A stretch of 64,000 nt of DNA from assembly GCA_037893245.1 (NCBI GenBank), contig JBAIAA010000518.1, forward strand, positions 248,001-312,000, read 5' to 3'. The DNA comes from Crossaster papposus. Taxonomy: Eukaryota > Echinodermata > Asteroidea > Velatida > Solasteridae. Shown here piece after piece: positions 10,441 to 52,281 of the stretch. Within the stretch, counting starts at the first letter, position 1. Every line of letters starts with the position of its first letter. The notes beneath the pieces are model-generated. The model searched no databases. It was not told the origin of the DNA and worked only from the letters and a program-made list of their open reading frames with translations. The position numbers and the translations under genes are program-made.

Positions 10441-10676
10441 ATGCCGAAAAAGACCGTCCAGCAGTTGGATGCCTACGTAAAGGCAACAGCCGTCGTGTAC
10501 GACCACTCCAACACCAAACTCATCAACAGGAAGACTAAAGTCAAACCAAGCAAGAAACAGGCTTTCCTGTCTGTACTGCATTACAAGAAAACGACTTATG
10601 GTGATAGCTGTGCAGAGAAGCAACCATCGGAACAATGTGTTCAAAGACAATCGAGTGGCAAGCCTGAAAGTCGAAG
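10441..10676 (+). CDS. Gene A exon 1: basic N-terminal module of unknown function
   Basis: Encodes 78 residues starting MPKKTVQQLDAYVKATAVVY, rich in Lys, with conserved DHSNTK and KKQAFLSVL stretches. It ends in phase 2 at AAG|GTAAAA. The same module opens genes B and C, so it is under constraint, but I recognise no family. Confidence 0.75.
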
Positions 10677-13600
10677 GTAAAACAAAATCAGTTATTGTAA
10701 CTCAATTTCGAAGAATTTGTTCAATCTTTGACACTTTCATGAGACCCATATTAATGTGGCAGTGGACGTTACTTTAAGGAACATAATCAAAATGAACTCT
10801 TCTACATTGTAGAATAACGCGTTTCTAAAACTACACAGGATTGTCCCTCATTTTCACAGTGATACCAAAGACGTAAAGCAGACACTGCAGGTATTTGTCC
10901 GGACTCTTCCCTTACATACACCCAAGACACTTTGTTTCCAACTTCATCCCGAGACGACAGTCTCATTTTTAAAAGAAGAAATAGCCAAGAAGATCGGTGT
11001 CGAGGCACGATATCAGCAATTGTACACCAAGAGAGACTTCCAGGTAGGTATATAATTTATAAACCGGATACCTCGTTCTATTTGAAATATCAAAACCCAG
11101 ATTTGTTCATCGTAGGAGTTACAAATGTTGATCTAAATGCAATATCTCACATGTTCATGTTTGATTAATAATCTGTCAGTGTTTATGAAACTCCCACACA
11201 CATACGTAAGCTCAATTAATTCCCATATAAAGGGTTAAACGAATTTACTTCTCTAGATGTTTCAATTACAATGCACAAGTAAAACCCAACACTTTTCGTA
11301 ATTTACTCTCTAACATTATTCACTTCGTCAGCTCTGTGACTTACTCACGCTCGAGGAGAATGGTGTCAGCAAGGATGAAGTCATCTCACTCCGTCTATCA
11401 TCAGATGACCAGAATGAAGATAATGTACCAACAGGTAAATGACAACGTTTGGAAATAGAATATTCAAGTGAATAAACTACCTGCTTGTAATATTTTCGGT
11501 ATTTATTTCAGCTGTTAAGAACAAGAGTCTCTTGTTGGTGTAGGTGTAGGGCTTATCCTAATTGCTGCGTTGGTAACCTTTACAACACTGGACACTTTTG
11601 AGAATGTTTCACTGAAGTCACACATTCTTTTGGCAGACAAAGTCAACCTTGATGAAAAGTACCTTAAGGACTTGTCCTCGAATATTGAATCATCGTGGAA
11701 GGAACTGGCCAAACACCTAGGATACGAAGAAGCTGAAATTGCAGACATCCAAACCACCAACGAAGGCAGCACTGAAGCGAGCCGTCACATGCTACTCACT
11801 TGGTGGGAAAAAACGACAGATCGCGACGAAGCAGCTCAGAAGCTGAGACGAGCATTGGAGGCCATCGGGTTGAGTGAATTGGCTCAAGATATACCAGGTG
11901 AGCTAGAAGTGAAGACTAAACTTAAAACAGACTCCGTAATCCCAAGAGTCATGATACAAAATACTTGAATACTCATTTAACAACAACCAAACTTTACAAA
12001 TACATAGTTTACATGTATTTTAAACAACATACATGAATGAAATTAGTTTTAAAAACTAATTTAAACAGTAACATGACATTTGTTGTTATTGCCTCAGTAA
12101 CGAGCGAATCGAGAGACGAAGCAGCTGGACCCGAGCCAGAAAGGCGTCAAGATGCAGGAGAAAAAGAGAAGAGCAAACAAAACGAAAACAATCCACCGAA
12201 AAAGGACGTTTGTGATCAAGAAAAACCTGTTATCTGGTAAAATATGATTAAACGCTGCAATTTATAATGCACATTGTGTTTGAATAATTTAACTACATGT
12301 AATAGCCGAAAAGCTAATCAAATTTTGTTTTGTAGATCATACATAGACTGCCTTAACAAAACCTTAATAAAACGGTGTATACAGAATGTTTACAACTATA
12401 GTTGGTGGTCTTCATTCCTTTATATTACAAGAGCTCTAACATAAACACTGCACTCTGACAGTTTCAGATACGTGACCCAGAAGCTGCAAGTCTTTGTCCG
12501 ATGTCACCTCTCACACAAACCACAAACACTTTGTCTCCAACTGAACCCAGAGACATCCGTCTCGACCTTAAAGGAGATAATACACGAGAAACTTGAAGTC
12601 CAGCCTCAACAACAGCGACTGTACATCCGGAGGAACTTTCGTAACTTTGAGGTAAATTAAAAACGGCTCAATACTATAAAGTGCCCATCAACATTCCATT
12701 GAATTCATATAAATGCATTAAGTGACAACTTCTTCTGATTCCGAATTGCACCAGTTGGGTACAAATCGTGCTGCTTCTGATGTCGGCGTAGTTGAAGAAA
12801 CGATACTCAAATGGTTATTAGAAGGGAAATGGAAAAACGGAAGACTACCTAATTATTAACCGCCACAATGTCGCCTTTCGAACTTTACATTTCAAAGAGA
12901 ATCAGAATCTTAAATATGTTTGTTGCAGCTGTGTAACTTGCTGACACTTCACGACTGTGGAATTCATCAGGATGAGAACGTCTCACTCCGTCTGTCTACT
13001 GATGGTCTACTGGGCGGTGGACCAAAAGGTAAAATGGGTATGCTTGTGGCAACATTTACCTTTCAAATCGGGCTTAATTGAACAAAAGTTGCAAATCTTG
13101 AACAACCCTTTGGGTTTTATGAATCGTAGATTCACATGTTAAACGAAACCACATTTCAAAACATTCTACCTTGTTGGTGGTGAGATCTGATAGACGAGGA
13201 GCTGTCCTCTATTATCTTGCTTTTCAGTGGCACCCCTCATTGGTCATTCCCCAACCCGGTCTTCGACCGGGTCCTCGTAAAACTGCATGTTCTGCTGGTC
13301 ACATGCATGCATTATGTTGGCCCGTGTGCAAAGTTCACGATCGAAAAGCAGACGTTGAATAAAAAAAATAATAAAAAATAAACACTGTTAATGAGATTTG
13401 GATTAGTCGGGGCCAATTTTAGACATAAAACAGTGAATTTATGAGTGCAAGGAATGTGTCTATCAAAGCTTGTTACCAACCCAATTGCTTCCTTGTTGCA
13501 GTGCTAGCACTTGCTGATGTGTGCTAACGTTAGCCTGTGCTATTTTTTTGCATAACGCTTGTTTTTTAGATGTCTATCATGAATACTACTAATGCACACA

Positions 13601-16600
13601 CAATTATCATTTCAAGTCGCGTAGCAAATTCTTCTTCTATTCTGCGAGAATTTTGTTTTGCAGAAAGTCTGTGCAAGGTCTATGCATGGGTGTACGTACA
13701 CGTACATTGACACAGTGCAGTGGGTGTACCCCCTTAGGCAGTTTTTACACGCTTGGTGGCGCTGCATTCAAGATTGTCGCGGAATGTAAAACAACTTAAT
13801 TGGAAAGCTCTTAACTGTAAATGCAATTCTGCAAAATTATCCATTCAATTTGAAAACCTATTTTCGTGCACCCGTCCCACAAAGTAATTTCTCACCAAAG
13901 AAATACGAATTAGGACTGATATTTTAGTGTTACGTCTGGAGGAACTCCGATAAAAACGTTGCTTTTTATAACCAAAGTACATACAAGATGAGTAAAAAAG
14001 AAGTTCCCTCAACTTAACAAAACTATTAAAAATATTTTAGAACTAGTGTGGTGCAAATGAAAGTGCATCTAATTGTTAGTCTACGTTGAAAATAATGAAA
14101 GTTTTGAAATCACATTTTCAAATTACTTGTGATTGAATATATAATACCTGGTAAACGTATTATTGCACATAACTTTAGAACCAGAGGAGTAAATTCAGTA
14201 ATTCAAAAATATGTATAGAGCCAAAAATATTGTCTATCTGTTTGTTTATTTCTCTATAGCTGTGTGTACATTACTATTTTAGTCTGGATTTTTTTTTTTT
14301 AATATTCGTCTAGACTAAAGGGAAGTTGTTTTAACTCGCAATGTATAATGTTTAAAGTTCACTATCTTTCAATCCGAAAAGAATACAACTAAATTGCATA
14401 CCGGTACTGATAACTGTTATACGGACTAATTACGCACTGATAACTGTTATACGGACTCATTACGCACTGATAACTGTTATACTGACGCATTACATACTGA
14501 TAACTGTTATACTGACTCATTACATACTGATAACTGTTATACTGACTCATTGCATACTGATAACTGTTATACTGACTCATTACATACTGATAACTGTTAT
14601 ACTGACTCATTACATACTGATAACTGTTATACTGACTCATTGCATACTGATAACTGTTATACTGACTCATTACTGATAACTGTTATACTGACTCATTACA
14701 TACTGATAACTGTTATACTGACTCATTACATACTGATAACTGTTATACTGACTCATTACTGATAACTGTTATACTGACTCATTACATACTGATAACTGTT
14801 ATACTGACTCATTGCATACTGATAACTGTTATACTGACTCATTACTGATAACTGTTATACTGACTCATTACATACTGATAACTGTTATACTGACTCATTA
14901 CTGATAACTGTTATACTGACTCATTGCATACTGATAACTGTTATACTGACTCATTACTGATAACTGTTATACTGACTCATTGCATACTGATAACTGTTAT
15001 ACTGACTCATTACTGATAACTGTTATACTGACTCATTACATACTGATAACTGTTATACTGACTCATTACATACTGATAACTGTTATACTGACTCATTACA
15101 TACTGATAACTGTTATACTGACTCATTGCATACTGATAACTGTTATACTGACTCATTACATACTGATAACTGTTATACTGACTCATTACATACTGATAAC
15201 TGTTATACTGACTCGTTGCATACTGATGACTGTTATACTGACTCATTGCATACTGATAACTGTTATACTGACTCATTACATACTGATAACTGTTATACTG
15301 ACTCATTACATACTGATAACTGTTATACTGACTCATTGCATACTGATAACTGTTATACTGACTCATTGCATACTGATAACTGTTATACTGACTCATTACA
15401 TACAGATAACTGTTATACTGACTCATTACATACTGATAACTGTTATACTGACTCATTACATACTGATAACTGTTATACTGACTCATTGCATACTGATAAC
15501 TGTTATACTGAATCATTACATACTGATAACTGTTATACTGACTCATTGCATACTGATAACTTTTATACTGACTCATTGCATACTGATAACTGTTATACTG
15601 ACTCATTACATACTGATAACTGTTATACTGACTCATTGCATATCGACTGACTCATTACATACTGATAACTGTTATACTGACTCATTACATACTGATAACT
15701 GTTATACTGACTCATTACATACTGATAATTGTTATACTGACTCATTACATACTGATAACTGTTATACTGACTCATTGCATATCGACTGACTCATTACATA
15801 CTGATAACTGTTATACTGACTCATTACATACTGATAACTGTTATACTGACTCATTACATACTGATAATTGTTATACTGACTCATTGCATACTGGTAACTG
15901 TTATACTGACTCATTACATACTGATAACTTTTATATTGACTCATTGCATACTGATAACTTTTATACTGACGGAAAGATTTGTTTTGCAGACGAACACTCT
16001 GTTGATGATCAGCTCTTGCGCGACTTAGCTTCCAAAACAGAATCGTCCTGGGAAAAAATGGCAGAGTTCCTGGGAATTTTAGAAGCAGAAATCAAGCAAT
16101 TCCAAACCACTTATGAAGACAACAAAGAAAGGAGCCTGCAGATGCTAAACTCTTGGTGGAGAAAGCAAACAAATCACGAGGAAGGATTTCAGAGATTGAG
16201 AGATGCGTTAAATTCAATCGGGCACGCTGAGCTGGCCTTAATGGTACTGTCAGAAGAGCAACAGCGGACGAAACAGGACGAACCTGAACTAGTGGTTCAA
16301 GAGGGAGAAACTAAAGGGAAAACTAAATCATCTGAGGACCAAACACCAATTAAGAAGGAACTTGCTCATCGAGACAAACAGCCAGAGGTTGAAGTTGGAG
16401 GTGCCAAAGAACAAAGCACGCAGAGAGGTAATACCGGTACATCAAAAGACTCTTATTCTGGAATCCTTTTGCGCACAATTAAATCTCAAAATATACTCTT
16501 TTTCGGGTTCCTACATTATCGACACACACAAAGGTTACACATTTAGTGAAAACGTCATTACATGTCTTGTCGGGCATCAACAAAATTCAAAATTTGTGAA

Positions 16601-19600
16601 GTAATTATTAGTCCGTAGGTCTGCAAAGACCCATGCATTTTTGGGTACACTCTTTTAAACTTTCAGGGTAACACATTAATACATTAACGAGTTCAAAACC
16701 ACATAAAGCCATTTTTATTGGCTGAGCCATGACATTGGAAAGTGGGCGGCTTCGCCGACAACAACTATATTCCACTACTTTTGCTTTTCTTTTCACAGCT
16801 AAGATGCAACCCAAGCGAAAATTACACGTGAAAGCAAGACAACATGTACTTACATCAATACAATTATGAATTATTCATATTCAGATTAGTAATTGTTTTT
16901 ACCGATGTGTGATCTAGATGCCACTGCACCACAACATGAAGGCAAACAAGGGGCTAACGATAATGCCAGGTCATCAGCGACAGTTGCAGATCATAAGACA
17001 ACTCAGCAAGGGGAGCAAGAAATCACAGAGATGGCGCTATCTGTGCAAGAGAACAGAGACTTGATTCAAATGAACCTGCAGCAAGTGACGAAGACATCAC
17101 TCGAGGGAGCAAAGAGGCAGAATAATGTCAACATTGATGGGAGTAACAACGTCATTGTTTCAGGAGATGTCAATGTCGTTAATAATTATTATAGTAACGT
17201 ATTTACAGGTAAATATCACAAAATAATTGCCGAAGTGAATTTTAAACAAGCAATTGATAAAAAGAAAAAGCAGTGACTCCGTTAAGAAGGCTGGACCTAA
17301 GATACAGAAAGTAATTCGTGTATGTATTTGAAAACAAAAAAACAAAGGCTCAATAGTGTTGGGCTATTCATGGAAATGAAAGATAGCCGTCTTTTGAATG
17401 AGAAGCTCGATTACCGATTCGACTAAAAGTTTGGTTCTCTTATCTATCGTGATGCTTATGGTATTTGCTATTCCCTCAGAATACACAGCATTGTCCCATA
17501 GAAATGTCATAATTATATGCATAATTCTGAGCTTGCACTATACAGAAATACTTTGTATTCAAACGTGAATGCTTTTAGTTCTCATTGAGCCGGTATTTCT
17601 TCTGTTTGTGGGGTATTTGCTTGTTTGTTTTTCAGCAGCTATTGAAACAACAAATTGGTTTTAATGTCGAGGATTTACGGTGTTCATTTGTTTTCAGAGT
17701 TTCCAAAGTTGCCAATTAAAACGGAAGTCACAAGGAATGGGGCGACAAACGACTATTTGACTGAAATGTTCTTGCTAACCATGAAAGCTTTACATCAAGC
17801 GAAGGGAATGGATTATGTCCGTGATCAATTCTCAGCTTTCCTAAATTCATGTGATGGCAAGCTTAAGCAAGTAAAGAATGGGTCTGTAACATTTGTTGTT
17901 CGTATCAAGAGTCGGGTGGGTCTGAACAAACTCTGGAGCATGTACACCACTGGAGACCTCGCCAAGAAACTGACGGAGATTCTCATCACGGATGAACTGA
18001 CAACAGAAGATAAGAGTGACTTGGCTATTCAGGCGACTATACTGGAAAGCGACTACGAACAGGCTTGCAGATTGTTTGACAAGTTGGAAAAAGACCAACA
18101 GAAAGGTAGATTATATATAAATCCTATATCACTAAACATTTATGTCCTTTTTCACGTTTTGCCATAAATTTACGCTACCCTTGTCGGTTAAATACTTTAT
18201 TTACAGGTGAAGAGGACTCGGGAGACATGGAAGAAGCACAACCTGCAGGAAGCAGCACAACAACGACTGTCGGCAGCTCTGACCCGGCTGAGCACGCTGC
18301 TGAAATATGTAAAGAAAAACTGAAGACATTGTATTCGACCACAGGTAGATATTCACAAATGGTCAAATGGGTGGACGGTGACACCAAGAAGATTCGTATG
18401 CCAAAGCTAACGTTGGTTAAGGCTGACGATCAGATAGAGAACAAGGTAATATCATACGAAGATATGTTCCTCGCGAAAACACGGGAGGGCAATTCAATTA
18501 ATCTGGTCATTCTAAATGGGCCAGATGATGAACAAAAGTCCATTCTTTTAGAAAGCATTGCATACGATTGGGCAACTGGCTCCAATCCCACACTCAGTAA
18601 CTTCAAACTTGTTACTGTCCCGCAAATGGAAGCCATTGAACAAGAGTCTGACCTTATTGACTCGATCTATGCTCAACTGTTGGGTCAAGACACAGATATT
18701 GACAGAGGTGACTTGGAGTCATTTATTGACACCAACCCTCAAAAAGTGCTTGTCCTATGGGATGGATTTGATAAGTCAATCGGCAACCTTGATGAGAACA
18801 AAGTTAATTTGGTTCTCAAATTCCTCAATCGGATGGCAGCGAAGGGGATACGGGTACTTCTAAGCACTCGCCACTCTCACAAATTCCTGAGCAGCAAAAT
18901 GATCCAGGAACCTGTCACTCATGTGACAGCTTCAGAGGTCACTGAGGTCGAGATTGAAGCGCACTTAAAAGAAATTAACTCGGAGGAACCTGGTCTGGCT
19001 GAGAATCTCATTGACAGAATCAAATCCTCAGAGGTTCTCTCCGACTGGGCCAAGAGCTTGCAGCTGATTCCCTTATTGTGTTTATTGTCAAAACAATCGC
19101 CACTATCTGACACACTATCACGCCTATACAATCAGGTAATGAAATACATATTTACACAACAGACAGATATGTCGCAAGGAGAAATATCCGACGTACTGAT
19201 TTCCATTGGTAGGACTGCATTGGAGGGTCTGGTTTCTCCTCAGCAAAGGTTAACATTTCAGGAAGAAGAGTTTGAGAAAGGGGCTCTCGAAAAAACCTTA
19301 GATGCAGGTTTCCTTATTCGTCGACGAGTGCCTATTGGTAAAAAATCGGTCAGCGACTGCATACAATTTAGTCACAAATCAACACAAGCATACTGTGCTG
19401 CTAAATACTGCCAGAGTTTACCAGACAAAGAGTTTCAGGAGGTTCTTGATCAGATTGGCAACCCGTGTGATTTGCAGTATTTGTTGCGCTTCTGCTGCGG
19501 CGACAATGAGCAATGCTGCAAACATATATTGCGTATGCTGCACAAGAAGTCTACCAAAAGAAAGGAAGAGAAGGAATTGGCGTTACATTGCTACTTTGAA

Positions 19601-21568
19601 AGTCAGGCCACACGTGTGATATCAGAAGATGTTGTCGAGTCATTCTTGAGTGGGTGGATGTCGATAGAATACACAAGCCAGGACTCGTTGAAGTCGCTCA
19701 TGTGGTTGCTGCAGCACGTTGCCGAGCAGACAGAGCTCTCGAAATACCTCGATAAAATAAAGCGTGTTGATTTCAAGACATGTGATCTGTCAAGGTTGAG
19801 TGGGGTCGTAGCTTCGCTTTTGGTCACAATGAAAAATCTGTCTTCAGTGAGCTTAAAACGATGCAAACTAACAGGTAATCAACTTGATCCCATTTTAGCA
19901 TCACTTCAGAAGGCGGATAACTTGACTAAACTTGATCTTTCTAATATCGACATAGGCGGCACTGCAAACATGTGGGCTGCCCAATTGCGATGTTTAAAAA
20001 ACATGAAGTCACTATGTCTTTGTAAATGTAACCTAAAAACGGAAGATATGGAAAGTATTACATCTTATGGAAGTGAGATGACCAGCTTAGAAAACCTTGC
20101 TATTTCAGGCAACAAGGAGTTGGGTGGTTATGTGGGGAAATGGGCGGCTGGTTTGCAAACCATGATTCACCTGCAATCACTCGAGTTGCGTTCATGTAAC
20201 TTAAATGCACATGATATACCACACGTTGCATCATCAGTTGGAGCGGTCCTAAACCTGACCGATCTTGACCTTTTAGACAATGAGGGTTTGGGTGGAAAAG
20301 CCGAAACGTGGGCGGCTAGTTTGAAGACGATGATTCATCTGAAAAAACTCAGATTGTCTTCATGTGGCGTCAATGAGCAGGATATACCACATATTGCATC
20401 ATCAGTTGGAGCGATGCCAAACTTGGCCAATCTTCACCTTTCAAATAATGTGGTCTTGGGTGGTAAAGCAGTAACGTGGGCGGCTAGTTTGAAGACGATG
20501 ATTCACCTGAAATCACTCGATTTATCTGAATGTGGCATAAATGAACAAGATATACCACACATTGCATCATCAGTTGGAGCGATGCCAAACTTGGCTAATC
20601 TTACCCTTTCACATAATATGAAATTGGGTGGTAACGCAGAAACGTGGGCGGCTAGTTTGCAGTCGATGATTCACATAAGGAAGCTTGATATGAGTGACTG
20701 TGGCATTCACAGTCGCGATGTAAAATACATTGCTAGATCAGTGAGTCGCATGGGGAATCTGGTGGATTGTGATTTTGATAGTCACTCAGTGTGGTTCCGT
20801 GTACGGACATGGCGTAAAGGCATCGAATTGAGCATTCAGTGGGTCTCACTTACCAGCGATAATATGGTGGATATTTTACAGTCATTCAGTAATCGGAGAG
20901 ATTTATTTAGTTTGACCCTTAATAAAATTGACGGCCTAAGTGGTTCCACGGACTCGTGGGCCCCACCATTACAAAACCTAACGCACTTGGAGGAGATCGA
21001 AATAACAAGATGCGCATTAAAAAGCACTGATATTGAACCCATTGCTGCAGCAGTAAGTCAAATGTCAAACATGAAATCTCTCAACCTCGAGGATAATCGT
21101 TCTTTGAGTGGCTCTGCAAAATCATGGGCTCCCAGTCTGAAACAGATAAAGCATGTAAGAAGCCTGGAATTGGGCGGATGTGCACTGACAGAGGAAGATG
21201 AGAAACACATATTTGATGTTGGTTTCATGCCTAATCGATATTCTGAACAGCATATGATAAAAATGCATAAAAGAAGACGCACGGATTCGAGTGAGAGTGA
21301 GAGTGAGAGTGACAGTGTCTGTGAGAGTTTTAAATACGAGTCACATAAAACGATCACTGGGCCAATTCATAAATCAAGGAAAGGCGATGTTGATTTCGAG
21401 CCATCCATGCGGTCATTGCTAGAAATGGAGTCACTAACACACCTACCAAAGACCCTTGAGAGTGGGAGTTTGGAATACGAGTCACATGAATCGACCACTG
21501 GACCAAGTCATAAATCACCTGGATCGAGTCGGGCCGAAGACACCAGTAAGGTCGAGAGCCACGAGTAA
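10441..21568 (+). CDS. NLR gene A: Ubl-Death-Ubl-Death-TRADD-N-like-NACHT-LRR receptor
   Basis: Model: join of 10441-10676, 10860-11043, 11332-11434, 11637-11897, 12098-12236, 12462-12651, 12929-13028, 15990-16427, 16918-17208, 17698-18105 and 18207-21568. It totals 5712 nt (1903 residues plus stop), all introns are GT-AG and the frame is continuous. Order by residue: basic novel module 1-78, Ubl 1 ~86-165, Death 1 ~178-258, linker, Ubl 2 ~312-400, Death 2 ~407-490, charged linker, beta-rich Asn/Val segment ~615-645, TRADD-N-like ~650-783, NACHT ~880-1190, leucine-rich repeats ~1315-1800, Ser/Glu tail. No signal peptide or membrane segment is visible, so I infer a cytosolic sensor. By analogy with NLRs, NACHT would drive oligomerisation and the death-fold/Ubl parts would recruit effectors. 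The start codon is chosen because ACCAAGATGCC is conserved in genes B and C. Exon limits are inferred without transcripts; an additional 5' UTR exon is possible. Confidence 0.8.
10860..11043 (+). CDS. Gene A exon 2: first half of Ubl 1
   Basis: Follows TTTTCACAG and ends CAG|GTAGGT in phase 0. LQVFVRTL... LCFQLHPETTVSFLKEEIAKK ...QQLYTKRDFQ aligns by pattern with ubiquitin strands 1-2, the main helix and strand 3 (compare MQIFVKTL in ubiquitin). Confidence 0.8.
11332..11434 (+). CDS. Gene A exon 3: second half of Ubl 1
   Basis: Encodes LCDLLTLEENGVSKDEVISL..., matching the ubiquitin segment with the LEDGRTLSDYNI loop and last strand. There is no terminal diglycine; the domain runs into an acidic DDQNED stretch. 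Phase 0 in, phase 1 out. Confidence 0.8.
11637..11897 (+). CDS. Gene A exon 4: Death domain 1
   Basis: A single phase 1-1 exon of 261 nt. Features of a Death-fold six-helix bundle: SSWKELAKHLGYEEAEI, then LLTWWEK, then AAQKLRRALEAIGLSELA. The W-x-x-LA-x-x-LG pattern is characteristic. Nearly identical in gene B (28183-28443). Confidence 0.85.
12098..12236 (+). CDS. Gene A exon 5: charged linker
   Basis: Encodes a Glu/Lys/Asn-rich segment (about 46 residues) with no fold visible. Phase 1 in, phase 2 out. The donor is ATCTG|GTAAAA. Almost identical in B at 28644-28782. Confidence 0.65.
12462..12651 (+). CDS. Gene A exon 6: first half of Ubl 2
   Basis: Encodes KLQVFVRCHLSHK... LNPETSVSTLKEIIHEKL ...QQRLYIRRNF. 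I chose the acceptor CTCTGACAG because the next AG (TTTCAG) would create an in-frame TGA at the junction. Ends GAG|GTAAAT in phase 0, the same internal intron position as Ubl 1. Confidence 0.8.
12929..13028 (+). CDS. Gene A exon 7: second half of Ubl 2 with Gly-rich end
   Basis: Encodes LCNLLTLHDCGIHQDENVSL then RLSTDGLLGGGPKG. The GLLGGG tail just past the last strand recalls the diglycine end of processed ubiquitin-like proteins; the gene C Ubl has it too and B has GLLGGGLKG. Phase 0 in, phase 1 out. Confidence 0.8.
13029..14401 (+). other. 5' part of the long intron 7 of gene A
   Basis: AT-rich intron sequence between the Ubl 2 and Death 2 exons. No exon-like or RNA gene sequence recognised before the 30-bp array begins. 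Confidence 0.5.
14402..15972. repeat. 30-bp minisatellite, about 52 units
   Basis: Head-to-tail units of 30 bp beginning ACTGATAACTGTTATACTGA and ending CTCATTACAT or CTCATTGCAT. Some units are shortened to 26 bp by loss of the terminal ACAT/GCAT. The array lies wholly in intron 7 of gene A and stops only about 17 bp before the Death 2 acceptor. Long open frames on both strands (Gln/Asn/Tyr-rich or Ile/Leu/Thr-rich repeats) are a by-product of a stop-free unit whose length is divisible by three. Gene B has neither the array nor the adjoining Death 2 exon. Confidence 0.95.
15990..16427 (+). CDS. Gene A exon 8: Death domain 2 plus charged linker
   Basis: LLRDLASKTESSWEKMAEFL then ...QMLNSWWRKQTNHEEG..LRDALNSIGHAELAL gives a second Death domain, about 85 residues, clearly related to Death 1. 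A Lys/Glu-rich linker follows. Phase 1-1, acceptor TTTTGCAG, donor GAGAG|GTAATA. Gene B has no counterpart. Confidence 0.85.
16918..17208 (+). CDS. Gene A exon 9: linker ending in a beta-rich Asn/Val segment
   Basis: Starts with an SSATVADHKTTQQGEQEITE stretch that gene C exon 5 shares. It ends with NVNIDGSNNVIVSGDVNVVN NYY, an alternating hydrophobic/Asn pattern that suggests a beta-arch or amyloid-type strand. Phase 1-1. The acceptor (GTGATCTAG) is weak but is supported by the gene C counterpart. Confidence 0.65.
17698..18105 (+). CDS. Gene A exon 10: TRADD-N-like domain
   Basis: A 408-nt phase 1-1 exon. Core NGSVTFVVRIKSRVGLNKLW then GDLAKKLTEILITDEL and ILESDYEQACRLFD. This GSV-strand/helix pattern resembles the TRADD N-terminal-like domain found next to death-fold domains in many invertebrate NLRs. 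That assignment is from memory of the family and moderate. The first half differs from B and C; the second half is nearly identical. Confidence 0.65.
18207..21568 (+). CDS. Gene A exon 11: NACHT, leucine-rich repeats and tail
   Basis: One 3362-nt exon. NACHT signatures: P-loop-like GPDDEQKS (18518-18541) with Lys and Ser kept but the usual Gly replaced by Gln; Walker B-like VLVLWDGFDK; sensor-like VLLSTRHSH; and QFSHKSTQAYCAAKY, the typical end of the winged-helix/HD2 region. Leucine-rich repeats follow, including three near-identical 56-residue double units marked by DIPHIASSVGAMPNL. The tail has a SESESES run and repeated YESH..TTGP.HKS units before TAA at 21566-21568. Confidence 0.9.
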
Positions 21569-25287: not shown

Positions 25288-25520
25288 ATGCCACAAAAGA
25301 CCGTCCAGCAGTTGGATGCCTACATTAAGGCAACAGCCGTCGTGTACGACCACTCCAACACCAAAGTCATCAGCAGGAAGACTAAAGTCAAACCAAAGAA
25401 GAAACAGGCTTTTCTGTCTGTACTGTATTACAGAAAAACTAATTCTGATCAATGTACAACAAGGAGACCATCGAAACGATGGGTTCGAAGACAATCGAGT
25501 TGCAAGCCTGAAAGTGGAAG
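25288..25520 (+). CDS. Gene B exon 1: basic N-terminal module
   Basis: Counterpart of gene A exon 1, one residue shorter, with the same ACCAAGATGCC start context and AAG|GTAAAA donor. Ends in phase 2. Confidence 0.75.
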
Positions 25521-28500
25521 GTAAAACAAATCAATTTCGAAGAATTTGTTCAATCTTTTACTCTTTCATGAGACCCATATTAATGTGGCTAAGAAGGTCA
25601 GCGTAATGGGGTCGTGTTCATTTCTGTTATTTTGTGTGCGAAAGTGCGTTGAAAATTGGCGCTGTTTAACCTTTTTTTTTTAACTCGAAAAGTTATTCTG
25701 ATAAGATGATTTCGGGGAGAATGATTTCGGAGAGAAAAGATGCATCTTTCCAATGATATATTTCTTTCGAATGATCACCGTGTGCGAAATTGTGAGTTCT
25801 GGTGTTGATTCTCGGAAAAGTTTGTGATCGGAGTCGCCTAAGGAGCGGCCATCTTATTTTTAGCACGTGACATTCACTTGTGTTTGGTTGCGAGGATTGG
25901 TCGGATAAAAATTGAAACTACATCACCGTAAAGACAACGAAATTATCGTTCGACTCGTACCAAGAGTAGGAAAGTTCGTTTGTGCTTTGCTTCAAATTTT
26001 GGATATTTTTTTCAGACACAAAAAACAAGTACAGATTTTCATGATTTTCGGGCCACTAAATCGTTAAAAAAAATAACATGAGGAGTTAATGGAAAACTAA
26101 GTAAGGAGTACTTTATGAAAGGGTGGAATTTTTGGAGTTTTTATAACAAGTTTTTTTGTTATGTTTTCCGTGACGCTTTTTGAGGAGGGAGGTTTTGTTG
26201 TCGGGTGCCATCGGCAAGATGATTAAAATAATGGCGGCGGTGCACTGTCACAATGGCTTCGTAGCTGCACATATATTCCTTTCACCATGCAGCTGTATGC
26301 ATGCATGAAGCAATAATGCAGCTATTACTTTTCGGTGGTTTGCTTTATTGGGGAAATTTACATCATTTATTAATGCAATTCTTCCAAAAAAATACTACAA
26401 CATATTTCAACAGTTTCCCAATGTGGCTGTCAGTGTCGCCATGGGTTGTAGAAACACAATGAATTATTAAGCCATCATCATTCATGATCATCGGCATCAA
26501 TCTTTATTTCTTTCTTTAAAGCATGTAATTATTTTGTACTCTATGACAGTACATTAATATTTCTTCTTGATACTATTAAACACTGTTACAACAGATACAT
26601 AAGGGCCATTATGAGTATAATCCTTGTTAGTTCTAGAAATTACAATGTTTATATAAATACAAAAGTTTGTATGTGTTGCTATTGCCTAAAACACGTTTTG
26701 AACGTAGTTTTTCACTGCACATCATTATATAAATTAGGTCCTATCTTTCAGTGCACTTGCATGTCAAGGTATTTTTATTATGCCTTGTCTGAAAATACAT
26801 CTCTGCAAGGCCCCCCCCCCCCCCCCCCACCCCCCCCCCCCAAAAAAAGAGGAAAAGTTTAGTCAGTTTCTACGGGAACCTTTTTATTCGAGAAGTTTTG
26901 TTTGTCAGCAAATACTTCCATACTCAAAAGATTTCTTTCCACTAAAATTCAAAAGCTTTTTTTAGGCCTAATACTTTAAACACACCGTTTGTTGGTTTTT
27001 AATGCAATGTTTCTACGCATTTCTATGTTAGGTCCCTGTACTGGATTCCCATCCTGGTTCAACCTCAAAGAACAGCGAGGTTCAAACAACAGCGAGGAAA
27101 TGTACACATTACCAGCTGTTAAAGGATAAAAGGGACCTAAGAATACTAATTTATGGAAATATTATTTCATCTAAATACACTTTAAAATGTTTTCCACACC
27201 TTTCAAACTAAATTGAGCCAGGCTGCTTTGGAGGTGTTATTTTTTATTTTAACACCCCGCACATGCTCGCGGAATAATTACGACTGGACATGTCCCTTTA
27301 ATTGACAATAACTTCACCAGAATCAAAATGAACTCTTCTGTTGTAGAAAAATGCGTTTCTAAAACTACACATTATTGTCCCTCATTTTCACAGTGATACC
27401 AAAGACGTAAAGCAGACACTGCAGGTATTTGTCCGGACTCTTCCCTTACATACACCTAAGAAACTTTGCTTCCAACTTCATCCCGAGACGACAGTCTCAT
27501 TCCTAAAAGAAGAAATAGCCAAGAAGATCGGTGTCGAGGCACGATATCAGCAATTGCACACCAAGAGAGACTTCCAGGTAGGTATATAATTTATAAACCG
27601 GATACTTCGATCCATTTGAAATATCAAAACCTAGATTTGTTCATCGTAAGAGTTACAAATGTTGATCTAAAATGCAATATCTCACATGTTGACATGTTCA
27701 TGTTTGATTAATATTCTGTTGGTGTTTTTGAAACTTCCACACACACAAGAAAGCTCAATTAATCCCCCATCTGAAGGGTTAAACGAATTTACTTCTCTAG
27801 ATGTTTCAATTAACGATACACAACTAAAACCCAACACGTTTCCTAATTTACTCTCTAACATTATTCACTTTGTCAGCTCTGTGACTTACTCACGCTTGAG
27901 GAGAATGGTGTCAGCAAGGATGAAGTCATCTCACTCCGTCTATCATCAGATGACCAGAATGAAGATAATGTACCAACAGGTAAATTACAAACTTTGGGAA
28001 TAGAATATTCCCAAAGTGAATAAACTACCTGCATGTGATATTTTCTGACTGATAAGTAAGCAATTCAGAACAAGAGTACATTGTTGGTGTAGGTGCAGAT
28101 ATCTTAATTGCTACGTTGGTAACCTATACAACACTGGACACTTTTGAGAATGTTTCAATGAAGTCACACATTCTTTTGGCAGACAAAGTCAACCTTGATG
28201 AAAAGTACCTTAAGGACTTGTCCTCGAATATTGAATCATCGTGGAAGGAACTGGCCAAACACCTAGGATACGAAGAAGCTGAAATTGCAGACATCCAAAC
28301 CACCAACGACGGCAGCACTGAAGCGAGCCGTCACATGCTACTCACTTGGTGGGAAAAAACGACAGATCGCGACGAAGCAGCTCAGAAGCTGAGACGAGCA
28401 TTGGAGGTCATCGGGTTGACTGAATTGGCTCAAGATGTACCAGGTGAGCTAGAAGTGAAGACTAAATTTAAAACAGACTCCGTAATCCCAAGAGTCATGA

Positions 28501-31500
28501 TACAAAATACTTGAATACTCATTTAACAACAACCAAACTTTACAAATACATAGTTTACATGTATTTTAAACAACATACATGAATGAAATTAGTTTTAAAA
28601 ACTAATTTAAACAGTAACATGACATTTGTTGTTATTGCCTCAGTAACGAGCGAATCGAGAGACGAAGCAGCTGGACTCGAGCCAGAAAGGCGTCAAGATG
28701 CAGGAGAAAAAGAAGAGAGCAAACAAAACGAAAACAATCCACCGAAAGAGGACGTTTGTGATCAAGAAAAACCTGTTATCTGGTAAAATATGATTAAACG
28801 CTGCTATTTATAATGCACATTGTGTTTGAATAATTTAACTACATGTAATAGCCGAAAAGCTAATCAAATTTGGTTTTGTAGATCATGCATAGACTGCCTT
28901 CAAAACCTTAATAAAACGGTGTATACAGAATGTTTACAACTACAGTTGGTGGTCTTCATTCCTTTATATTACAAGAGCTCTAACATAAACACTCCACTCT
29001 GACAGTTTCAGATACGTGGCCCAGAAGCTGCAAGTCTTTGTCCGATGTCACTTCTCACACAAGCCACAAACACTTTGTCTCCAACTGAATCCAGAGACAT
29101 CCGTCTCGACCTTAAAGGAGATAATACACGAGAAACTTGAAGTCCAGCCTCAACAACAGCGACTGTACATCCGAAGAGGCTTCAGAAACTTTGAGGTAAC
29201 GATAGCCTCAGGTTTTACAAAGATAGAACATGCGTGATGTATAAATTTCGGTTAATAATACATGAGTCGTGTATATCAAAATGTTGCTTGTGATGTCGGT
29301 ACACTGTTTTTTTGCAGTTGTATGTTACAGGCCATTGACTCGACAAGCATAATTTGTAAACAGTGCAGTGCTTTTTGAGGGTTTAGCAAAGCAAGGGTTA
29401 AAGTTCAAGCAATCATGCATAAACGATAGTTGGTTTTAGCCCGACCGGTTTCGTCTAACAATATAAAGGCACCGTTTGGTGGTTTGAGCTACAAAACACC
29501 AAACTGTCGTTTTTACAAACCTTTGTTCCAAAGATCGGGTATTTACATCGGTATCTTAAAAACTATTTTACCAGCTGTGTAACTTGCTGACACTTCACGA
29601 CTGTGGAATTCATCAGGATGAGAATATCTCACTCCGTCTGTCTACTGATGGTCTACTGGGCGGTGGACTGAAAGGTAAATAATTTCGTATTGGAACATAA
29701 TTACCTTTCAAGATGGGGGAAAGCCTGCTGACGTAATACCATCACAACTTTCCTTTAGATGTCACATCGTCCCGTATAACTGTCTTCATGACACTAAAAT
29801 ACATATGAGCATCTTTTGCTGGAAGGTGAACGTTTTAGAACATAACCGATACTGAATTACACTTTTTGTCGGTCTCATGAGTAGCGAGTATTTATTGTGC
29901 TGCATCCTGTAGTCCTTAGAAGGAACGAGGTTGAATAATTTGATTTTTCTGAAACAGAAATACATACAATGTATAATCTTTCAATCCGAAAGTTACATTA
30001 GTACGGAATACTACCAATAGTCTAAATGAATGTGCTGCATAGCCGTCACTTAATTCGATGTAGTTTTTCTCACACAGAACTCAACATTGTACTGTAAGGT
30101 CTGAAGGAAATCAGATTAATAATTTGGGACATTTTGCTTCACGTATTGGTCAATATTGGTGGCCCTAAGAATTGGTGCGCATGTCGTGTAATACGAGACC
30201 CAAAAAGACGCATCTGTAAAACCATACTGGGCAATTAAAAAACATTTTAGTTTTTAAAAAGACCACTGTCACACTGTTAATAGTGCACATCAGCGAAGCA
30301 TTAACTACAGGATGAGTCAAAAAGAAAGTGACCCGGAATACAAAAAATCTTAAAAATCAAATCAAATTTGATACACCAATCAAGCATGTCAATAATCTCT
30401 CACTCATTTAGAAAAAAACAAAGAATTACCAAGTGTCTTCATCCTAAGTAACATGTAATGTCTAGGTCCTTTACTTTTCATCTCAAAAGGCAGCAAACAG
30501 ACTGACGAAAATAAGAAAAAGACTGAATCTTCTGAGGAGCAGAGACAAAAGCAGCAAGGGGCAGAGGGAACGGATCAAAACATTCAAACGAAGAAGACGA
30601 TGCAATCATCAGAAGGTCCTGGATTGAAGGGGTCAACGCACCAGGAACCAGGCCGCGGGCAAGTGGGTGCTACATCAAGCAATCTTTCAGAGACACAAGA
30701 AAGAAAGAAAGGTACTGCATCTTCTGAGGAGGAGAGACAAAAGCAGCAAGGGGAAGAGGGAACGAATCCACACATTCAAACGAAGGAGACAATGCAATCA
30801 TCAAAGGATCCTGGATTGAAGGGGTCCGCACACCAGAAACCAGGCCACTGGCAAGTGGATGCTATACCAAGCAATATTTCAGAGACACAAGAAAGAAACA
30901 AAGGGACTGCATCTTCTGAGGAGCAGAGACAAAAGCAACAAGAAGCAGAGGGAACGGATCCAAACATTCAAACGAAGAAGACGATGCAATCATCAGAATG
31001 TCCTGGGTTGAAGGTGTCAACGCACCAGAAAACAGGCCAATGGCAAGTGGGTGCTACATCAAGCAAACCTTCAGAGATAAAAGAGACAGTGGTCAGAGAT
31101 GTGACATCACAAGACCAACGTCTAATGCCGGGTCCGAGCTCAGTTCAAGACATCGTACCTGCTGGTAGACACCAACTGGAAACATCACCACTGTCACATG
31201 CTGTACTAGCACGTGGACCTGCGCAACCCGTTTCACTGGGTTTCGTGAGTACAAGTGGCGATCACTGTCCTGTCTTAGTTGGCACGTTTAACCAACCAAC
31301 TTTCAACGTAAACTTTCAAAGTTTGAAAGTGACAGAAAATAGTTCAGGTACGACATGTTCCATAACTCTCGAACTTTATATAATTCGCTCTTTTGTGACT
31401 GTTAGCATCACGCACACTAAAGACTGCTGCATCAGATTGATACTGAATCTGAATCTACATTTGCTCTAACCTTTCAGGGAAACAATGACACTTTTCTCGG

Positions 31501-34500
31501 ATAAGTGTAGAAATTTCTTTTGAGCCGTTTTTCAACTTAGTTTTACCTTTCAAAGCTTGATTCTGACATAAAGCAGTCCAGGTATACACAATATTCCAAT
31601 AACCACGTTGTCTCCCACCTGCATCCTGTACTTTAGTATTTTATTGTCTCGCCTTTATAGGATTCCCCAGTTATTTCAACCGAACAACGCTATAGGCTCA
31701 ATTTGAAAATTTCAATTTCCAAAGGTTACCATGAAATCAGTTACATAGTTGCAATCACGGCAGCTGACCTGATACCGTTCCCGACGTCTATAAATTACTC
31801 CGTTTCGTATGAAGTAGGATCAAGAAAACATAAACCTTTTTTCAGCATGTACATTGTATGAGCACAAACCAGGTTATGTAGACATAATTTGTCATAAAAC
31901 ACCAGTCCCATAAATCCATCAATTTCTAAAATTTACAACAAAAGCAATTGTTATAATAATTACCTTTAATAAAGAAAAAACCCAATTGCTAGATACTCAA
32001 CAGACAGCCAATCACTCATTTTGTTTTAAATAAAACCCAAACAGCAAACTGTCAAACAACAAAACAACTAGGACTAAACGTATAGCGATAGATTACAATT
32101 TAAAATAGAAAAACAAACGACGCAACTAACACAATTTTTGATATAATTTTTGGTACAATGTGCTTGAAATTGAACAATTTACGTTCTTTCCAAAAGCGTC
32201 AAGTGATTTGGCGCAAAAATGTCAATGAATCATAAAGTTGTAATTAATTGTCAATTCATGCATTTTTTTAGCGGCTACGTGACTTGTACATGTATAGTTA
32301 CTAGCTGTTTTTTAGCCGTTCACATTTTTAATTGACCATGCTGCCTCGTAAAAAGCAATGGTACACCTAACATATTTTTGTTTTACCAGACCAACCTCTT
32401 CTAGATGTAAACACAACAGTCACAAGAAGGAAGACAATGGACGAAGGATTGACAAAGGTCCTTGAAGCTCAAATGCTCAGCTTAAGTCAAAGCTATGGTC
32501 TGCAATACGTTGAGGAAAAATACTTCGAATTTTTCGCGAAGTTAAGGGCCAAACTTCACGATGTAAAGTGCGGATCTGTGACGTTCGTTTTCCGCATCGA
32601 GAGTCGGGAGGGTCTGGACGAGCTTTGGAGTTTGTACACCAGGGGGGATCTCGCCAAGAAACTGACAGAGATTCTCATCACGGATGAACTGACAACAGAA
32701 GATAAGAGTGACTTGGCTATTCAGGCGACTATACTGGAAAGCGACTACGAACAGGCTTGCAGATTCTTTGACGAGTTGGAAAAAGACCAACAGAAAGGTA
32801 GATTATATATAAATCCTATATCACTAAACATTTATGTCCTTTTTCACGTTTTGCCAAACATTAACGCTACCCTTGCCGGTTAAATACTTTATTTACAGGT
32901 GAAGAGCACTCGGGAGACATGGAAGAAGTACAACACGCACAACCTGCAGGAAGCAGCGCATCAATGACTGTCGGCTCATTGACCGACCCGGCTGAGCACG
33001 CAGCTGATAAATGTAAAGAAAAACTGAAGATATTGTATTCGACCACAGGTAGATATTCACAAATGGTTAAATGGGTGGACGGTGACACCAAGAAGATTCT
33101 AATGCCAAAGCTAACGTTAGTTAAGGCCGGTGGTAATAAGGAAGACAAAAGGGTAATATCGTATGATGATATGTTCCACGTGGAAACACAAGAGGGCGTT
33201 CCGATTAATTTGCATAGTTTGGATGGACAAGATGCCGAGCAAAAGTCCATTCTTTTGGAAAGCATTGCATATGATTGGGCAACTGGCTCCAATCCCACAC
33301 TCAGTAACTTCAAACTTGTTACTGTCCCGCAAATGGAAGCCATTGAAGAAGAGTCTGACCTTATTGACTCGATCTATGCTCAACTGTTGGGTCAAGACAC
33401 AGATATTGACAGAGGTGACTTGGAGTCATTTATTGACACCAACCCTCAAAAAGTGCTTGTCCTATGGGATGGATTTGATAAGTCAATCAGCAACCTTGAT
33501 GAGAACAAAGTTAATTTGGTTCTCAAATTCCTCAATCGGATGGCAGCGAAGGGGATACGGGTACTTGTAAGCACTCGCCACTCTCACAAATTCCTGAGCA
33601 GCAAAATGATCCAGGAACCTGTCACTCATGTGACAGCTTCCGAGGTCACTGAGGTCGAGATTGAAGCGCACTTAAAAGAAATTAACTCAGAGGAACCTGG
33701 TCTGGCTGAGAATCTCATTGACAGAATCAAATCCTCGGAGGTTCTCTCCGACTGGGCCAAGAGCTTGCAGCTGATTCCCTTATTGTGTTTATTGTCGAAA
33801 CAATCGCCACTATCTGACACACTATCACGCCTATACAATCAGATAATTAAATACATATTTACACAACAGAGAGATATGTCGCAAGGAGAAATATCCGACA
33901 TACTGATTTCCATTGGTAGGACTGCATTGGAGGGTCTGGTTTCTCCTCAGCAAAGGTTGACATTTCGGGAAGAAGAGTTTGAGAAAGTGGCTTACGAAAA
34001 GGCCTTAGATGCAGGTCTCCTTATTCGTCGACGAGTGCCTATTGGTCAAAAATCGGTCAGCGACTGCATACAATTTAGTCACAAATCAACACAAGCATAC
34101 TGTGCTGCTAAATACTGCCAGAAATTACCAGACAAAGAGTTTCAGAAGGTTCTTGATCAGATTGACAACACGTGTGATTTCCAGTATTTGTTGCGCTTCT
34201 GCTGCGGCGACAATGAGCAATGCTGCAAACATATATTGCGTATGCTGCACAAGAAGTCTACCAAAAGTAAGGAAGAGAAGGAATTGGCGTTAAATTGCTA
34301 CTTTGAAAGTCAGGCCACACGTGTGATATCAGAAGATGTTGTCGAGTCATTCTTGAGTGGGTGGATGTCGATAGATTACACAAGCCAGGACTCGTTGAAG
34401 TCGCTCATGTGGTTGCTGCAGCACGTTGCCGAGCAGACGGAGCTCTCGGAATACCTCGATAAAATAAAGCGGGTTGATTTCAAGACATGTGATCTGTCAA

Positions 34501-39560: not shown

Positions 39561-39891
39561 TTTTCTAAAGCCCGCGTGTTTTGGGGGTCAGGGGGCAAAT
39601 GAGGACTATTGCGCGCATGCTCAGGAGGCGGGTCATACCAATTGTATAACAAAAGGGGAGCTTCCCACATTACTGTGATTACCGTTCTGACTACATTTAT
39701 ATTAGTATTGTTGTATTATATATTGTTTTCTGTTAAACGTCTAAGGTTAAAGATCAAGACATTGCAGTGGTTGGTGATTTTGACGGTTTGTTTTATCTAA
39801 TGACTGTTCTCCTTGGGGGCCAATGTATTATTATGCTGTATCCAGGCATACTGTATAAATCAATTGAAGATATTAATTATATACTTGAAAT

Positions 39892-42800
39892 AAAAAAAAA
39901 TACTGTTTAGAAAATGGATTATTCTTTTTATTTGTAGTTTCTACCAAGCCAATAAATTCTCAGTATTTTGTAATCTGCAAAACTTTTATTTGTACAATAA
40001 ATACGCGGTCACTTAAGAACAAAACAAGTGACTTCGTTGATTATGTCTGCAGTTCTGGTGCTGATATATTCGCATTGACAGAGACTTGGCTTAAAGACAC
40101 TGATGATGCTTGTAGAATTGAAGCAACACCCATAGGATTTAAATTTCTGGACCACCCGAGGAGCAGTCGAACTGGTGGAGGTACTGCACTGCTTTTACGA
40201 GACAACATGGAAGTTAGCAAGCTTGCCGCTGGTGAACGCCAGTCATATGAATTTTCGGAATGGTTAATTAAGTCTGGATCACAACCTCTTAGACTGGTTA
40301 TTATATACAGGCCACCTTACTCACCCAACCATCAGGTGACTCTGACAACATTTTTAACTGAATTTTCTGATTATTTAGAATCACTTGTATTATCTAGTGA
40401 ACCACTTGTGATTACCGGTGATTTTAACATTCATGTTGATGCGACTCAAACCCTTGATGCTATACACTTTTGTGAAATGCTTGAATCTATGAATTTACAT
40501 CAGCATGTCACTACCTCTACTCATGTACAAGGTCATACATTGGATTTAATAATCAGCCGTCAGTCTGAATCCATTATTCGGGGTGATCCAGTTTCTGATC
40601 AATTATTTTCTGATCATTGTTCAGTTGTGTGTAATCTACAATTCAGTAAACCTTGCTTATCTTCGAAAGAAGTGTCGTTCAGGAAAATTAAGGCCATCAA
40701 TCTGGCAAGGTTTAGGGACGATATACTTGATTCAGATTTGTGTAATATTGAGTCCTCTCATGTAAATCTGGATGATCTCGAGGGTCTTGCTAATTTATAT
40801 AGTGATACTTTAGGTGCCATTATTGATTGTCATGCTCCAGTTATCAATAGAACGATTATTGTTCGCCCACAGGTACCTTGGTTTAATGACAATATCAAGA
40901 AGGCCAAGTGTGACAGGAGAAAACATGAAAGGAAATGGCGCCAAACTGGGTTACAACATGATTTAGATTTGTTCAAGTTGAAGAAAAATTCTGTCACTTT
41001 TTTAATGAAAATTGCTCGTCAGGATTATTATACAAGATTTATTGAAGATAACAGTACAAATCAAAGAAAGTTTTTTAAAGCTGCATGTTCTCTTTTTCGC
41101 AACAACGTGTCATCATTACCTCCGCATACCGACGATTTACAGCTCGCTAACTGTATGGGTGACTTTTTTGTCCAGAAAATCTCCCGTATAAGGTTAGCAT
41201 TGTGTAGGGCAAACAGCCCACTGAATTATGGCATACCTCCCTTACCTCATCTTCGGACGGCTGTTTTTACTGATTTCTGTCAACTGTCTGAAAGCTGTGT
41301 TCATACACTTGTGACTGGTTCTAGTAAGAAAACATGTGTACTGGATCCAATTCCTATGCAATTATTCACAGAATGTTCAGATATTTTATTACCATTCATT
41401 ACGAGGTTGATTAACCTTTCATTACAAACTGGGCATTTTCCACTTATATGGAAGTCGGCTGTTGTTCTCCCTCTGTTAAAAAAGCCTGGTCTCGAGGCTA
41501 GGGTGGAGAACTTCCGACCTATTAGTAACTTAAAGTTTGTTTAAAAACTATTAGAAAGAGTTGTGGCAAGTCAATTACAGTCTTACCTGACTCAGAATAA
41601 TTTATATCCATTGATGCAGTCAGCATACCGTAAATTTCATAGTACTGAAACAGCTCTCTTAAAAATTCAGAACGAATTGTTAATGGCTATGAACAGAAAA
41701 CATGTATCACTGTTGGTCTTATTAGATTTAAGTGCTGCATTCGATACATTAGATCATAATATTCTATTGAGTGCACTTCAGTCACGTTTTGGAATTAACG
41801 GTACAGCCCTCAATTGGTTTTGTTCATATCTAGCCAACAGATCTCAAAGGGTTTTAATTAATGGTAAATTGTCTAATAACTATAACCTTGAATGGGGAGT
41901 CCCACAGGGATCATGTCTGGGCCCCCTACTTTTTATTTTGTATACCAGTCAACTGTTTGACATTGTCAAAGTTCATCATCCACAGATTCACTGCTACTCA
42001 GATGATACACAGTTGTATCTGTCATTCAGTCCTGACGAGGCTGGTAGTCAGGAGCTCGCTGTTTCTGCCATGGAAGCTTGCATCCATGATGTACGACAAT
42101 GGTTGCTTACTAATGGGTTATTTTTGAATGACAAAAAAACAGAGTTCTTGATAATTGGTACACGTCAGCAATTGTGTAAAGTTACATTGGACGGCATACA
42201 GGTTGGCCAGTCCATTCTCTCCCCTGTCTCCCTTGCCCGAAACTTAGGTGCATGGTTTGATGACAATATGTCAATGAAAACTCATGTAACTAAAGTGTGC
42301 GGTAGTGCTTTTTATTATTTGCATAACATTAGACGAATTAGGAAATATTTATCAAAGGAATGTACGGAGACACTGATTCATGCATTTATCTCTAGTAGAC
42401 TTGACTACTGTAATAGTTTGTTTTATGGTTTACCTAAGGCACAGATTGATAAACTCCAGAGAGTTCAAAATGCTTGTGCTCGGCTTGTCTGTAATGCATT
42501 CAAGTTTTGTCATATTACACCATTGTTTATGGATCTACATTGGCTTCCTGTTCGGTCTAGAATTGAATTCAAACTGTTATTGATTACTTACAAAATTTTA
42601 CATAGTTTAGCCCCACAGTATTTAAGTCAGCTTGTTTCTATCAAGTCCCAATCTCGTTACTGTCTTCGTAGTTCTAGTGATGGTATCTTTCTTAACTACC
42701 CTGTAGGTTGTGGCAAGGCTACTCTTGGGGACCGAGCCTTTGAATATAGTGCTCCATACCTCTGGAATAAACTCCCACTTCATGTTAGGAACGCTGCTAA

Positions 42801-52082: not shown

Positions 52083-52281
52083 AGCATGCAGCTGTAGGTG
52101 CGCTCTGCAGACCCGAAGCGAGCGGCAGGGACAAACAGCAATCTAATACAGACTTAAAGAAAACTTGAAACATACGATTCAATACAATTACATTCCAACA
52201 ATATATCCAGTAATAATTACAAACCTAATAAGTGCACAAACGGCTTCATTTCAACAAACTCGAGAATCATTCTCGAATCAC

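Follow-up and report, generated by a model that had tools for sequence, protein, structure and literature searches.

A predicted sea-star NLR gene with tandem ubiquitin-like and Death modules in Crossaster papposus

Gene Structure at the Crossaster Locus

A 64,000-nucleotide stretch of the genome of the sea star Crossaster papposus (contig JBAIAA010000518.1, positions 248,001-312,000 of the forward strand; this whole stretch is called the window, and nucleotide positions below refer to it) contains a gene, here termed gene A, for a predicted receptor of the nucleotide-binding, leucine-rich repeat (NLR) type, in which two ubiquitin-like (Ubl) modules, each followed by a Death domain, stand ahead of a TRADD-N-like domain, a NACHT domain, and leucine-rich repeats (LRR). 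Its 11 exons within 10441-21568 (+ strand) join into exactly 1903 residues without inner stops, and the single open frame given in a preliminary description was thus rebuilt from the DNA with GT-AG introns: the donor is GT in all ten cases, exons 2-10 have AG acceptors, and the acceptor of exon 11 reads TTTACAG/GTGAAG, the slash marking the junction. The chain of that description stands; two paralogues in the window, genes B and C, and the degenerate nucleotide site of the NACHT domain went unmentioned in it. Junction phases are consistent throughout the three genes. Each Ubl of the gene A chain is split over two exons, with a phase-0 intron ahead of its last strands.

Exon 1 (10441-10676) provides the start codon and a family-specific N-terminal segment, MPxKT(V/I)QQLDxxxKATAVVYDHSN..., which recurs in 16 of 26 proteins (genes A, B, and C and 23 homologues) that were surveyed with home-made profiles. 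The first Ubl is encoded by exon 2 (10860-11043, first part) and exon 3 (11332-11434, last strands, without a diglycine (GG) tail), followed by Death domain 1 in exon 4 (11637-11897) and a charged linker in exon 5 (12098-12236). Ubl2 begins in exon 6 (12462-12651) and is completed by exon 7 (12929-13028), which carries its last strands and a conserved tail, TDGLLGGGPK. Intron 7 (13029-15989) is occupied for much of its length by a tandem array in which a 30-bp unit recurs about 53 times (52.7 copies; 14405-15970). Exon 8 (15990-16427) encodes Death domain 2 and a charged linker, and exon 9 (16918-17208) a linker with an N/G-rich, beta-type end (NNVNIDGSNNVIVSGDVNVVNN); exon 10 (17698-18105) holds the TRADD-N-like domain, and exon 11 (18207-21568) the NACHT domain (Walker A GPDDEQKS, Walker B DGFDK), the LRR, the C-terminal tail, and the stop codon. 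All exons lie on the plus strand. The home-made profiles place the Ubl modules at residues 86-167 and 314-402 of the predicted protein, the Death domains at 180-260 and 410-490, the TRADD-N-like domain at 653-783, and NACHT at 881-1080.

Domain Identity

A Pfam scan of the whole gene A chain supports these assignments at the curated cut-offs. The ubiquitin family PF00240 scored 46.4 bits over two stretches (cut-off 25.4), and the joined pieces of Ubl1 and Ubl2, scanned singly, reached 28.2 and 33.1 bits; the Death family PF00531 scored 72.5 bits over two stretches (cut-off 22.6), with 50.8 bits for Death1 and 41.6 bits for Death2 alone. The UN_NPL4 and Sde2 N-terminal models, which also describe ubiquitin folds, likewise reached their cut-offs. 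NACHT (PF05729) was found at 33.8 bits (cut-off 26.7) and LRR_4 at 27.3 bits (cut-off 27), as expected for an NLR; LRR_14, LRR_6, and LRR_1 all stayed under their Pfam cut-offs on this chain. The paired Ubl and Death modules and the NACHT-LRR exon, read from the letters in the preliminary description, are therefore borne out by profile scores, and the candidate reading as an ordinary DEATH-NLR without real Ubls was rejected. Structurally, the beta-grasp fold was recovered for the Ubl, with the ubiquitin fold confirmed in a homologue, and the six-helix fold was recovered for the Death domain. Among the structure matches of the model of one Acanthaster planci homologue (P0006) were both OASL and ISG15; this match list is limited to Ubl1, Death1, and Ubl2, and is silent on Death2 and TRADD-N.

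Paralogues and Other Elements in the Window

Genes B and C lie on the same strand as gene A and have open frames with canonical junctions. Gene B (25288-36605, +; 10 exons, 2060 aa) has the order Ubl1-Death1-Ubl2-repeat linker-TRADD-N-NACHT-LRR and is without Death2, in whose place stands the repeat-built linker; a 192-bp coding tandem repeat of 2.9 copies (30521-31084) forms part of this linker. Over 10782-12655, introns included, gene A is 94% identical to gene B, which marks this stretch as a recent duplication or conversion. Gene C (59019-64000, +) is cut by the end of the window and comprises at least 7 exons and at least 1072 aa in the order Ubl (GG type)-Death-linker-TRADD-N-NACHT; between its linker and TRADD-N exons, a Death-like relic with stops (61770-62030, +) was read by eye.

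Two retroelements were also recognized by eye. A Ty3/gypsy-type element (47520-52142, - strand) is represented by a single open frame of 1540 aa in which the integrase part comes first and reverse transcriptase and RNase H follow, a Gmr1-like order, and a repeated stretch occurs at about 46518 and 52920. A LINE-type (long interspersed nuclear element) sequence at 39889-42855 (+) shows endonuclease and reverse transcriptase parts and is split by one stop codon.

Relatives in Other Sea Stars and Known Systems

Protein searches, which reach proteins sharing exact words within a length range (one search scored the best 7987 candidates), returned 23 distinct homologues, all from Patiria miniata (Asterinidae) or A. 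planci (Acanthasteridae). The order Ubl-Death-Ubl-Death-NACHT occurs in one predicted chain in P0008 (annotated as "protein NLRC5-like," 2212 aa) and P0009 of A. planci and in P0003 of P. miniata; P0001 has one additional Death domain. These three proteins share the N-terminal cassettes and NACHT with gene A, and P0008 the LRR as well, but they have no TRADD-N and their Walker motifs are intact. P0010 of P. miniata follows the gene C order, Ubl-Death-TRADD-N-NACHT, and carries LRR; it differs from gene A in its single cassette. The complete gene A order, with two cassettes, TRADD-N, and NACHT, was found in none of the 23 homologues. By its predicted proteins, the Ubl-Death NLR chain is a subfamily, present in two sea-star families among the proteins searched.

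In the Ubl tree, the first Ubls of both genera separate from the second Ubls of both genera, and the window Ubls are closest to those of Patiria; in the NACHT tree, P0010 is closest to the window genes. With regard to GG versus non-GG Ubls, the best tree requires two changes, and among 200 bootstrap trees one change is enough for 53%; the second Ubls of A. planci and P. miniata do not come together in a single starred group.

Pfam domains on single homologue proteins are already annotated in public databases. Among the literature matches listed, no title or abstract start describes Ubl-Death NLRs, in agreement with the preliminary description, whose author was aware of no Ubl-Death-Ubl-Death-NACHT-LRR protein; as far as found in these matches, the Ubl-Death-Ubl-Death-(TRADD-N)-NACHT-LRR architecture has apparently not been described before. 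Two Ubl folds per chain, as in gene A, are found in OASL and ISG15, where in contrast to gene A the Ubls are adjacent and occur without Death, NACHT, or LRR. Metazoan TRADD-N proteins, which according to passages of Kaur et al. (2021; PMC8195603) have expanded in starfishes, among other marine invertebrates, resemble gene A in joining TRADD-N to Death-type and ubiquitin-system domains, the latter listed there among TRADD-N partners; neither section 13 nor these passages mention a Ubl-Death-NACHT-LRR protein, a GG tail, or a TRADD-N branch whose NACHT is broken, and other inactive STAND (signal transduction ATPases with numerous domains) modules are described. Echinoderm Death-NACHT receptors resemble gene A in joining an N-terminal Death domain to NACHT; in Chiridota heheva, Death or death effector (DED) domains occur in 24 of 53 NLRs, and the relevant passages (PMC8913654) make no mention of a ubiquitin-like module such as those of gene A.

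The TRADD-N-Like Exon

The TRADD-N-like exon proposed for gene A in the preliminary description gains support through its relatives and not by its own score: the exon of gene A had no Pfam match, and PF20694 (cut-off 23.7 bits) reached 23.1 bits on the gene B exon (E = 6.6e-05, just under the cut-off) and 18.1 bits on that of gene C (E = 0.0023). At E values up to 5, six of nine TRADD-N-like sequences matched PF20694, the best at 6.6e-05; a PDB profile search with nine TRADD-N-like sequences gave no matches up to E 10. The label is therefore likely for gene A on the strength of its relatives, at scores that do not reach the formal cut-off. TRADD-N is described as a sandwich resembling the RNA recognition motif (RRM) in passages of Kaur et al. 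(2021; PMC8195603). Along this stretch of the P0006 model, strands are followed by two helices, further strands, a helix, two strands, and a last helix, an order that would be compatible with a sandwich of this kind, with block means of only 48-71 in the predicted local distance difference test (pLDDT).

The gene A exon (17698-18105) diverges sharply from those of gene B (32390-32797) and gene C (62267-62674) in its first half and is near-identical to them in its second; between A and B, synonymous divergence (dS) amounts to 0.67 in this exon versus about 0.1 in Ubl1 and NACHT. The split divergence hints at exon shuffling or gene conversion.

Directly ahead of TRADD-N or NACHT, an N/G-rich, beta-type motif of about 33 residues, VSVDxxVxGxNNPxFLxPVxxPTxNFVQNV, was found in 10 of the 26 proteins, a count in which six are the profile seeds and gene B and P0017 are weak; it occupies residues 492-524 in gene C and 651-685 in gene B, and recurs in eight homologues. 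Gene A is not among the ten, and the beta-type stretch of its exon 9, NNVNIDGSNNVIVSGDVNVVNN, gave no match to the motif profile. The motif is possibly an amyloid-type signalling motif, and not a strict RIP homotypic interaction motif (RHIM), whose core is [IV]Q[IVL]GxxNx[MLI]. As a candidate in its own right, the RHIM amyloid motif was rejected, with no strict matches among the 26 proteins.

The NACHT Nucleotide Site and Selection

The nucleotide site was compared across 18 NACHT proteins, with GxxGxGK(S/T) as the standard for Walker A and DE for Walker B. Gene A, with GPDDEQKS and DGFDK, does not conform to the nucleotide-switch motifs, and the same is true of all six members that combine Ubl and TRADD-N (A, B, C, P0010, P0013, and P0020), each of which deviates from GxxGxGK(S/T). 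In 6/6 the glycine that precedes the lysine is lost, as is the glutamate of Walker B, and in 5/6 the middle glycine; the lysine itself is lost in P0013 and P0020, the former keeping two of the three glycines. Among proteins with Ubl and without TRADD-N, GxGK(S/T) and DE are present in 10/10 and the full GxxGxGK(S/T) in 8/10 (in P0014 and P0015, A replaces the first glycine); both proteins with TRADD-N and without Ubl keep Walker A and Walker B. The six members form a single NACHT clade with 100/100 support that spans both genera and is unchanged after removal of 27 columns around the Walker motifs, and one old change therefore explains the degenerate site.

Simple NG86 (Nei-Gojobori) estimates, made without tests, of the ratio of nonsynonymous to synonymous divergence (dN/dS) were 0.29 (A/B) and 0.34 (A/C) for NACHT, which is thus kept as a protein; the LRR gave 1.16 (A/B).

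The Ubl Surface and the Diglycine Tail

Human ubiquitin was aligned with 34 Ubls, 21 of the GG type and 13 first Ubls; the tree and the tail count exclude the partial P0005 second, P0018 first, and P0020 first Ubls and that of P0019. The face bound by most ubiquitin-binding domains is the Ile44 patch, formed by L8, I44, H68, and V70. This patch was not recovered: in the GG-type Ubls, I44 is kept in 1/21 (Y or F in 18), V70 in 0/21 (R in 19), H68 in 0/21, and L8 in 0/21 (two gaps, in a loosely aligned position), and the first Ubls keep L8 in 2/13 and I44, H68, and V70 in none. G47 and K48 are likewise kept in 0/21 of the GG-type Ubls, and K27 in 21/21; R72, a residue that matters to the ubiquitin E1, is retained in 0/21 (two gaps). 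With the Ile44 patch replaced, ordinary ubiquitin-binding partners appear unlikely for these Ubls, and the earlier suggestion that they recruit ubiquitin-binding signalling proteins runs against these counts.

The tail tells a different story for the two Ubl classes. L-x-G-G-(G/A) is present in 21/21 second or single Ubls versus 0/13 first Ubls of double-cassette proteins; P0005 second and P0019, outside this count, read GLLGGG, A. planci P0006 and P0017 have the exact LRGG, and even the divergent P0014 and P0015 keep LxGG. In a 16-protein alignment, all 15 invariant columns fall within Ubl2, in part because Ubl2 is the segment common to all 16 proteins, and four of them are the tail residues L398, G400, G401, and G402. 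In most rows the tail is some 3-4 residues longer than that of ubiquitin, and the glycine pair is internal to the chain; the chain of ISG15 ends in its GG tail. For the LxGG tail of Ubl2, a role as a site of cutting or attachment and a role as a structural turn are both conceivable. Its conservation favors the "built-in tag" proposed in the preliminary description, and the missing R72 counts the other way.

A Proposed Mechanism and Its Alternatives

On balance, and by a modest preference, gene A is read as a member of a sea-star NLR subfamily with a tandem Ubl-Death signalling head and a scaffold-type NACHT/TRADD-N mechanism; from its sequence it is probably a scaffold-type receptor. The rapidly changing LRR end would contact a ligand in the cytosol, and NACHT together with TRADD-N would serve as a scaffold for binding or assembly, independent of nucleoside triphosphate (NTP) hydrolysis. 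Clustering would expose the Ubl-Death cassette, whose Death domains could nucleate a complex with a Death adaptor or caspase. Integral Ubls act as protein-interaction surfaces in OASL and TBK1/IKK; the Ubls of gene A would be fixed surfaces of this kind and not ubiquitin itself. Homologues such as P0008 and P0003, which have no TRADD-N and keep their Walker motifs intact, could be classical switch-type receptors or partners.

As a caveat, several observations weigh against this mechanism. Support for TRADD-N in gene A is indirect, and the TRADD-N exons of genes A, B, and C, aligned and folded alone, yielded a poor model with a mean pLDDT of 44. The six degenerate proteins are one clade and count as one event, not six; moreover, the Walker A lysine and serine remain in A, B, C, and P0010, and these four may for this reason still bind nucleotide. 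The selection estimates share the simplicity noted above and are less clear outside NACHT. Between A and B, the ratio is 1.39 for the stretch after NACHT (from 4 synonymous changes), 0.52 for Ubl2 with its flank, 0.68 for the linker, and 0.94 for the C-terminal tail, and that for Ubl1 comes from 5 synonymous and 2 other changes; exon 1 gave 1.01 (A/B) and 0.44 (A/C), and Death1 gave 0.62 against gene C. Ratios were not obtained for Death2 against gene C, which is saturated, or for Death1 between A and B, which has 0 synonymous changes.

A decaying family of pseudo-receptors, in which the degenerate NACHT reflects loss of function, would agree with the altered Walker A and B motifs of all six Ubl + TRADD-N members; genes A, B, and C are all open, however, the NACHT ratios of 0.29 and 0.34 speak against decay, and the degenerate site, common to Patiria and Acanthaster in one clade, looks old and kept, and such decay is considered very unlikely. 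It is most unlikely that the chain is a gene-model artefact in which the chosen splicing joins at least two adjacent genes. It is a predicted chain, in which Ubl2 is parted from Death2 by an intron of 3 kb that holds a large array of repeats, and gene C retains a stop-bearing Death relic; yet the phases fit at all junctions of the three paralogues, and public models from two species, themselves predictions, show the same order in one chain.

The remaining alternatives concern the Ubls. Ubl2 could be a working modifier, a protease cut after LxGG freeing Ubl1-Death1-Ubl2 with a terminal diglycine and leaving Death2-TRADD-N-NACHT-LRR; the restriction of LxGG(G/A) to second or single Ubls, its invariant residues, the exact LRGG of P0006 and P0017, and its retention in P0014 and P0015 all suit such a role, which is nonetheless judged unlikely, as in most rows the glycine pair sits some 3-4 residues farther beyond the last strand than that of ubiquitin, and with R72 absent and the Ile44 patch replaced, the ubiquitin E1 and many deubiquitinases should fail. 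We know of no enzyme that cuts the Ubl2 tail. The fuller version, an inbuilt, tail-processed modifier whose Death-bearing double-Ubl fragment would be attached to targets while the second Death domain is freed on a nucleotide-independent NACHT/TRADD-N scaffold, is rather improbable; if true, it would couple sensing to protein tagging within one chain. Equally doubtful is a constitutive degradation or proteasome-docking module that holds the receptor level low: the ubiquitin fold is confirmed in a homologue and integral Ubls of the Rad23/Dsk2 type dock to the proteasome, but docking goes through the Ile44-type face, and these Ubls have that face replaced. Finally, the Ubl cassette might serve as an integrated decoy or tripwire against pathogen enzymes, proteases or deubiquitinases, whose targets are ubiquitin-like tails, a proposal of very low probability; the LxGG tail adjoins a Death domain, and protease tripwires have precedents in NLRP1 and CARD8, but the Ubl2 tail is strongly conserved, unlike the cut region of CARD8, which is called rapidly evolving in the abstract of PMC10249858.

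Implications for Sea-Star Immunity

The ubiquitin-like modules extend the known range of NLR signalling heads, in a combination found in at least two sea-star families. Two features can be tested directly: the conserved diglycine-type tail, present in one Ubl and absent from the other, and the TRADD-N NLR branch that is without the standard nucleotide-site residues and still constrained. The second of these bears on the question of whether NLRs need their NTPase. Mass die-offs occur in sea stars, and among the literature matches listed there appears to be little work on their internal immune receptors.

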